Assembly: GCA_026391075.1 (NCBI GenBank) | Contig: JAPLES010000021.1 | Span: 62,001-126,000 of the forward strand | Direction: 5' to 3' | Length of the DNA: 64,000 bases | Source: Bacteroidota bacterium | GTDB lineage: Bacteria > Bacteroidota > Bacteroidia > Chitinophagales > LD1 | Part shown: positions 1,784 through 50,617 of the stretch, one piece after another | Layout of the letters: every line of letters begins with the position of its first letter | How positions within the stretch are numbered: the stretch's first letter is position 1 | Position numbers and translations under genes: made by a program | The notes under the pieces: model-generated | Told to the model about the DNA's origin: nothing | What the model saw: only the letters and a program-made list of their open reading frames with translations | The model's database searches: none

Positions 1784-1784
1784 A

Positions 1785-1838
1785 GATGATGGCATGACTA
1801 AGCACGGGTAGAGCCAAGCAAGTCATGCGATCATTAAT
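1785..1838 (+). repeat. REP-like imperfect palindrome (left copy flanking RAYT)
   Basis: gatgatggcatgactaagca...gcaagtcatgcgatcattaat; arms ATGATgGCATGACT / AGTCATGCgATCAT; inverted copy at 2475-2528. Confidence 0.85.
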
Positions 1839-1893
1839 AGGCTAACCTAAATTTTAAAAAAGGCGTTTAAAAAACTTTAAAGCTGCAGACCAA

Positions 1894-2469
1894 ATGGAGC
1901 TAACAGACGGCAACGTTTTTCATATCTACAACAGAGGAAACCAACGGCAACAAATATTTTTTACAGAAGCCAATTACCAATACTTTCTTCAAAAAATGGC
2001 GAATGCGCTTTTGCCTCACGCAGATTTATTGGCGTACTGTTTAATGCCGAATCATTTTCATTGGTTAGTTCAAATCAAATCGGATAGTGAGGGCTCAAAT
2101 ATCTATGCTGCAAATTTCTCTAAAGCAATGGCGATTTTACTTCGTTCCTACGCTCGAGCCATGCAAAGACAGCAAGGATTTACCGGTTCGTTGTTTCAGC
2201 AAAATTCGAAATCAAAAATTTTGACAACAGAAAACGATGTGTTGACTTGTTTCAACTATATCCATCAAAATCCTGTGAAGGCGAGTTTGGTGCAAAAAGC
2301 AAATGCTTGGGAGTATTCATCCATCGGAGAATATTTGAAACTTTCGGGAATAAATTTTTGTAACAACCCTTTGCTTTACAATCTTGCTTTGATAGATGAT
2401 GAGTATAATTTCATTGAGGCTTGTGATAAAGATATTGATGATGAAAAAATTAAAAGAATATTTGCCTGA
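1894..2469 (+). mobile_element. REP-associated tyrosine transposase (RAYT / Y1_Tnp, IS200-like)
   Basis: YHxYNRGN-type start (FHIYNRGNQRQQIFF), HUH motif in CLMPNHFHWLVQ, catalytic Tyr in YIHQNPVKA; 191 aa. Confidence 0.93.
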
Positions 2470-2474
2470 TAGTC

Positions 2475-2528
2475 ATTAATGATAGCATGACTTGCCAACC
2501 GAAACCTTTGCTTAGTCATGCCATCATC
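2475..2528 (-). repeat. REP-like imperfect palindrome (right, inverted copy flanking RAYT)
   Basis: attaatgatagcatgacttgcc...gcttagtcatgccatcatc is the reverse complement of 1785-1838 with a divergent loop; same 54-bp length. Confidence 0.85.
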
Positions 2529-2545
2529 GCTCTTAAACGTTCACT

Positions 2546-50535: not shown

Positions 50536-50574
50536 ATGATTGGGCTTTTAATTATGGAGCAAGAAATTTTTTAA

Positions 50575-50617
50575 AACAACAATGCCATCTTTCAAAAAGA
50601 TGGCATTGTTGTTTTGT
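50575..50617 (+). terminator. Intrinsic terminator
   Basis: aacaacaatgccatcttt ca aaaagatggcattgttgtttt. Confidence 0.88.

Follow-up and report, generated by a model that had tools for sequence, protein, structure and literature searches.

The window analysed here, a 64-kb (64,000-nucleotide) stretch of DNA from a Bacteroidota genome, raises the question of how a Y1 HUH enzyme gene framed by two inverted palindromes came to sit between two neighbouring genes, and whether it arrived there as a unit. The flanking genes, which we take to be ACMSD and kynU – the names come from an earlier, sequence-only reading and are consistent with the sequences – are both conserved across the order and often adjacent. 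The stretch between them is very probably a REPtron – that is, a TnpA-REP gene with an inverted pair of cognate hairpins – inserted as a unit at the ACMSD/kynU stop/start junction after the split from the sequenced congeners.

The open reading frame is intact and carries the motifs MPNHFHW and YIHQNPVKA, the former containing the RAYT HUH motif (NHFH) and the latter the predicted catalytic tyrosine (in YIHQNP). The encoded protein matches Pfam Y1_Tnp (PF01797) at 7e-6, above the cut-off, and the NCBIfam model for REP-associated tyrosine transposases (RAYTs), NF047646, at 2.9e-21 and 75.9 bits, just below a cut-off of 80 that is a database convention rather than a biological definition. The top PDB match of its AlphaFold2 model (pLDDT 89.2) is 4er8_A (E=9.9e-8, TM-score 0.71 by target), the structure of E. 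coli TnpA-REP in complex with a REP hairpin; the IS200/IS605 transposases rank after it and well behind. An alignment of 11 sequences shows no variation at H54, H56, Y122, N126 or P127, and in a RAYT tree the protein groups with G009_C2 and G012_C17 (support 99/98). Plasmid and phage collections yielded only distant homologues, with a best listed identity of 36%.

Each palindrome spans 54 nt, and an independent inverted-repeat search recovered the two as arms that are 81% complementary and spaced 636 nt apart. The arms are identical at 44 of 54 positions; nine of the ten differences fall in the loop and one (position 45, G/T) in the stem. The left palindrome consists of a 14-pair stem with one mismatch, an AA/A internal loop, two GC pairs and a 14-nt loop. 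As DNA, the hairpins have fold energies of -12.9 and -12.3 kcal/mol (z about -5.4 and -6.0), and none of 200 shuffled arms was as stable. No comparable copy of the arms occurs elsewhere in the window, where the best ungapped non-self match is 28/54. The ACMSD stop lies at 1781-1783 and the kynU ATG at 2546, with 17 nt between the right arm and the latter. The description given in the sequence-only reading – a full-length Y1 HUH enzyme with both motifs, flanked by inverted imperfect palindromes, in a unit running from the ACMSD stop to 17 bp before kynU – is thus borne out, and its proposal of a REPtron architecture draws support from the gene, the fold and the hairpins as well as from the solo copies and empty sites described below. 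Separately, a 20-bp perfect hairpin (AAAACAACAATGCCATCTTTC...) with A/T runs on either side lies at 50573-50615 of the window and is probably a bidirectional terminator.

Table 1. Features of the unit in the window and of its relatives in the host assembly (G000).
Feature	Position	Strand	Evidence
Whole inserted stretch	1784..2545	+	missing from ACMSD-kynU junction of seven congeners
Left REP-like palindrome	1785..1838	+	inverted-repeat search, hairpin folding, family comparison
RAYT/TnpA-REP-type Y1 HUH endonuclease, 191 aa	1894..2469	+	ORF, Pfam, NCBIfam, structure match
Right palindrome, an inverted repeat of the left	2475..2528	-	inverted-repeat search, folding, family comparison
Solo copy	C77:26701-26754		BLAST E=4.9e-12, independent of covariance model
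Solo copy, 4 kb upstream of unit	C61:59812-59865		BLAST E=4.7e-9, independent of covariance model
Solo copy	C26:70623-70676		pattern search
Second REPtron, AGGTGTCAGACAC-type palindromes	C33:56953-57626 (L055:2454-3127)		

Of the checks proposed along with that description, two were carried out, the first being a search of the host genome (3.6 Mb in 91 contigs) for solo copies of the palindrome. Three were found, on C77, C61 and C26, giving a total of five with the flanking pair; BLAST found no second copy of the whole unit in the same genome. Among congeners, G017 has three copies, G015 one clear and one weak, and G001 one. Only BLAST, longer-pattern or covariance-model matches with a matching second arm were accepted as copies, as the pattern GCATGACTNAGC with one mismatch gives 30 matches, mostly chance, against 16 for the reversed control. 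Pattern matches in G011, G006, G014, G019, G020 and G023, which have no second arm, were rejected, as was G036:C50, a compact unrelated palindrome. E-values that the covariance model (R1) gives to the eight sequences it was trained on are circular, hence were left aside as evidence; outside the training set it matches G015:C5 (2.8e-9) and G001:C125 (1e-4).

In all ten copies compared, the 5' arm reads ACTAAGC without exception; it contains the AA of the internal loop facing the single A. Compensatory changes are seen at four of the 16 stem pairs (covariation score 0.250 vs a shuffled mean of 0.113), from which it follows that the hairpin, and not the sequence alone, is or was maintained. The canonical GTAG REP signature (GT[AG]G at the 5' foot of the hairpin) is absent from the family, the feet reading GATGATGG, CATGATGG, AGTGATGG, ACTGATGG and the like. 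The three copies in G017 lie on C7, C9 and C26; two have an altered stem base (GCATAACT), in one case with a compensating AGTTATGC. As the G017 assembly, 99% complete, holds no close homologue of the window RAYT (the best is 37% identical and goes with another palindrome), its palindromes outlast or lack a cognate enzyme.

The second check, a comparison of the ACMSD-kynU junction in relatives, revealed that the arrangement is not conserved: ACMSD and kynU directly abut or overlap, with no insert, in seven congeners (G015, G010, G001, G017, G016, G007 and G009). Neither of the outcomes that the sequence-only reading had named as refuting it, a lack of further palindrome copies or a conserved arrangement, was therefore observed. 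In G015, for example, the empty site reads TTTGTGTG/ATGAAATTTG, and the junction AAAAAATTTGTGTG-ATGAAATTTGAAAAC corresponds to AAAAAATTTGCATGA-[unit]-ATGAAATTTGAAAAC in the host. Since all seven lack the insert, including the nearest, whose ACMSD is 97% identical to that of the host, the unit most likely arrived whole, and a gain of ~762 bp in the host lineage is the most economical reading. The left boundary of the insert is uncertain by about 1-2 nt and the right one is less certain; they are also asymmetric, lying 1-2 nt past the left hairpin and 17 nt past the right.

The same empty sites could instead reflect a domesticated, immobile RAYT whose ancestral unit was lost precisely in the seven relatives, or one that came from a donor via homologous recombination, and they would then be uninformative about its own mobility. 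Such a history would suit the description of RAYTs as single-copy, vertically inherited and housekeeping-like (PMC8049555, PMC8266576), as well as the finding that, in three congeners, one other RAYT type is followed by the same gene. We nonetheless consider it unlikely, given that loss calls for parallel precise events in seven relatives, that transfer by recombination still needs an earlier insertion in the donor, and that the closest homologues, G009_C2 and G012_C17, sit between different genes.

Solo copies, too, vary in presence. G001 and G016 each have a clean empty site for the one on G017:C7, and the one on C26 is missing in G010 and survives as a decayed remnant in G015, which implies that the palindrome family existed before the unit came to its present position. 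At the C77 site G015 has other sequence, and around the C61 copy the spacer is too diverged in relatives to reveal an empty site. No shared target sequence is evident among the insertion sites; in C77, G017:C7 and C33 the palindrome supplies the stop codon of the neighbouring gene.

The C33 locus holds the second RAYT of the host (C33:56987-57571), 41% identical to that of the window and framed by a different palindrome (AGGTGTCAGACAC...), which provides the last codons as well as the stop of its neighbour. Here again there is an empty site in G015, where 21 bp lie between flanks whose DNA is 91% identical on either side. Most RAYTs in the genus and family sit inside inverted palindromes, which vary with the type of RAYT; this correlative pairing is what one would expect were every enzyme specific for its own palindrome. 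A third Y1-type ORF of the host, at C47:23337-24049 (L056:1838-2550; MPNHFHAI, YIHLNP), lies between CGCAGGGTC...GACCCTGCG palindromes, of which the right-hand one extends to the contig end. In three congeners (L070, L060 and L061, that is, G009:C3, G016:C532 and G002:C122), a RAYT of the GGTCTGACC...GGTCAGAC type is found immediately upstream of one and the same gene, which appears to code for an aldehyde dehydrogenase, so that this type seems to have stayed in place; the palindrome encodes the RAYT C-terminus in two of the three.

Whole-unit empty sites for two units, one hairpin per end of the unit, and a fold superfamily common to the IS608 and ISDra2 transposases would all agree with a genuine self-mobile IS200-like insertion sequence with terminal hairpins, rather than a domesticated RAYT. 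That origin is nevertheless quite improbable for a unit present once in its genome, with solo hairpins dispersed without the gene, a Y---NP motif and RAYT model match in place of the Y---Q of IS200, and TnpA-REP, well ahead of the IS200 transposases, as the nearest solved structure. The notion that the palindromes have nothing to do with the RAYT and simply serve the operon as transcription terminators or as hairpins for mRNA processing can be all but dismissed: they do form hairpins at gene ends, but a terminator role was rejected for lack of a T-run after the stem, the same sequence is dispersed and varies in presence between species, and the same flanking architecture surrounds RAYTs at unrelated loci.

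The REPtron reading accommodates the HUH motif and single tyrosine in Y---NP, the TnpA-REP fold and the flanking inverted palindromes that recur in the genome. Counting against it are the missing GTAG/GTGG foot, the NF047646 score, the single copy of the unit, the asymmetric boundaries and the small number of palindromes, five in 3.6 Mb where classical REP genomes have hundreds. Judging by TnpA-REP and IS608 (PMC8266576, PMC6006769), the Y1 enzyme of such a REPtron would most likely recognise one hairpin strand as single-stranded DNA, the asymmetry of the AA/A internal loop together with the ACTAAGC arm most likely deciding which strand; most likely it would then cut single-stranded DNA beside the hairpin via its tyrosine and rejoin the ends. 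The outcome would be the spread of solo hairpins and, on rare occasions, of the complete unit, and insertions at stop/start junctions would be those tolerated. On this analogy we infer that the window enzyme recognises these hairpins, cuts next to them and mobilises the unit, and that the AA/A loop may have the same role as the conserved AA-GC bulge of E. coli REPs, which is required for cleavage (PMC8266576).

Whole-unit gain at two sites is of wider interest because the mobility of tnpA-REP has been described as lacking evidence (PMC8266576), and RAYTs as vertically inherited (PMC8049555). It is a real possibility, though somewhat less likely than not, that within the genus whole REPtrons, and not just REPs, are mobile, each relying on its Y1 enzyme as transposase to insert cleanly at the borders of genes; if true, this would contradict the idea that RAYTs are domesticated, immobile genes. 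With clean whole-unit empty sites for two of its units, this one genome provides a natural system in which to test REPtron self-movement, and the GTAG-less palindrome with its invariant AA-containing internal loop is a simple substrate for studying strand choice by Bacteroidota RAYTs without the GTAG guide.

Among known systems, IS200/IS605 elements (IS608, ISDra2) share the Y1 HUH fold, a hairpin at either end and the absence of target duplication, but have Y---Q where the window protein has Y---NP, and differ from this single-copy unit with its dispersed solo hairpins. TIRYT/TIRtrons (Di Nocera et al. 2013, PMC3733652) likewise place a Y1 enzyme inside inverted long repeats, with moderate-copy repeats elsewhere, whereas here each arm is itself a bulged hairpin and the GGGGWSAS motif is absent. 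With the E. coli REPtron (TnpA-REP subclass 2.2, group 2; PDB 4ER8) the unit has in common the fold, the HUH and Y---NP motifs, an imperfect palindrome broken by a conserved AA-containing bulge, and inverted REPs beside the gene; it differs in having no GTAG foot, AA/single A instead of AA/GC, a 14-nt loop, five copies rather than hundreds, and no REP doublets seen besides the pair around the gene. Bacteroidetes TnpA-REP proteins of subclass 2.6, with atypical flanking structures that lack GT[AG]G and have further genomic copies (Quentin et al. 2018, PMC6006769), resemble it in host, in the YIH[QN]NP motif (here YIHQNP) and the SS motif after it, in length (near 179 aa) and in the non-GTAG structures flanking the gene with copies elsewhere; by published motifs rather than HMMs, it deviates in NHFH (consensus NH[LIV]H) and in FQ in place of WQ at the W-motif position. 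The suggestion in the sequence-only reading that the palindrome family may be uncharacterised therefore stands for the sequence, which appears new, but not for Bacteroidetes RAYTs with atypical hairpins as such, which that subclass already represents. Also new are the solo copies in a genome with no cognate RAYT (G017) and the evidence, which suggests that whole REPtrons insert cleanly, though tnpA-REP genes are usually described as non-mobile.
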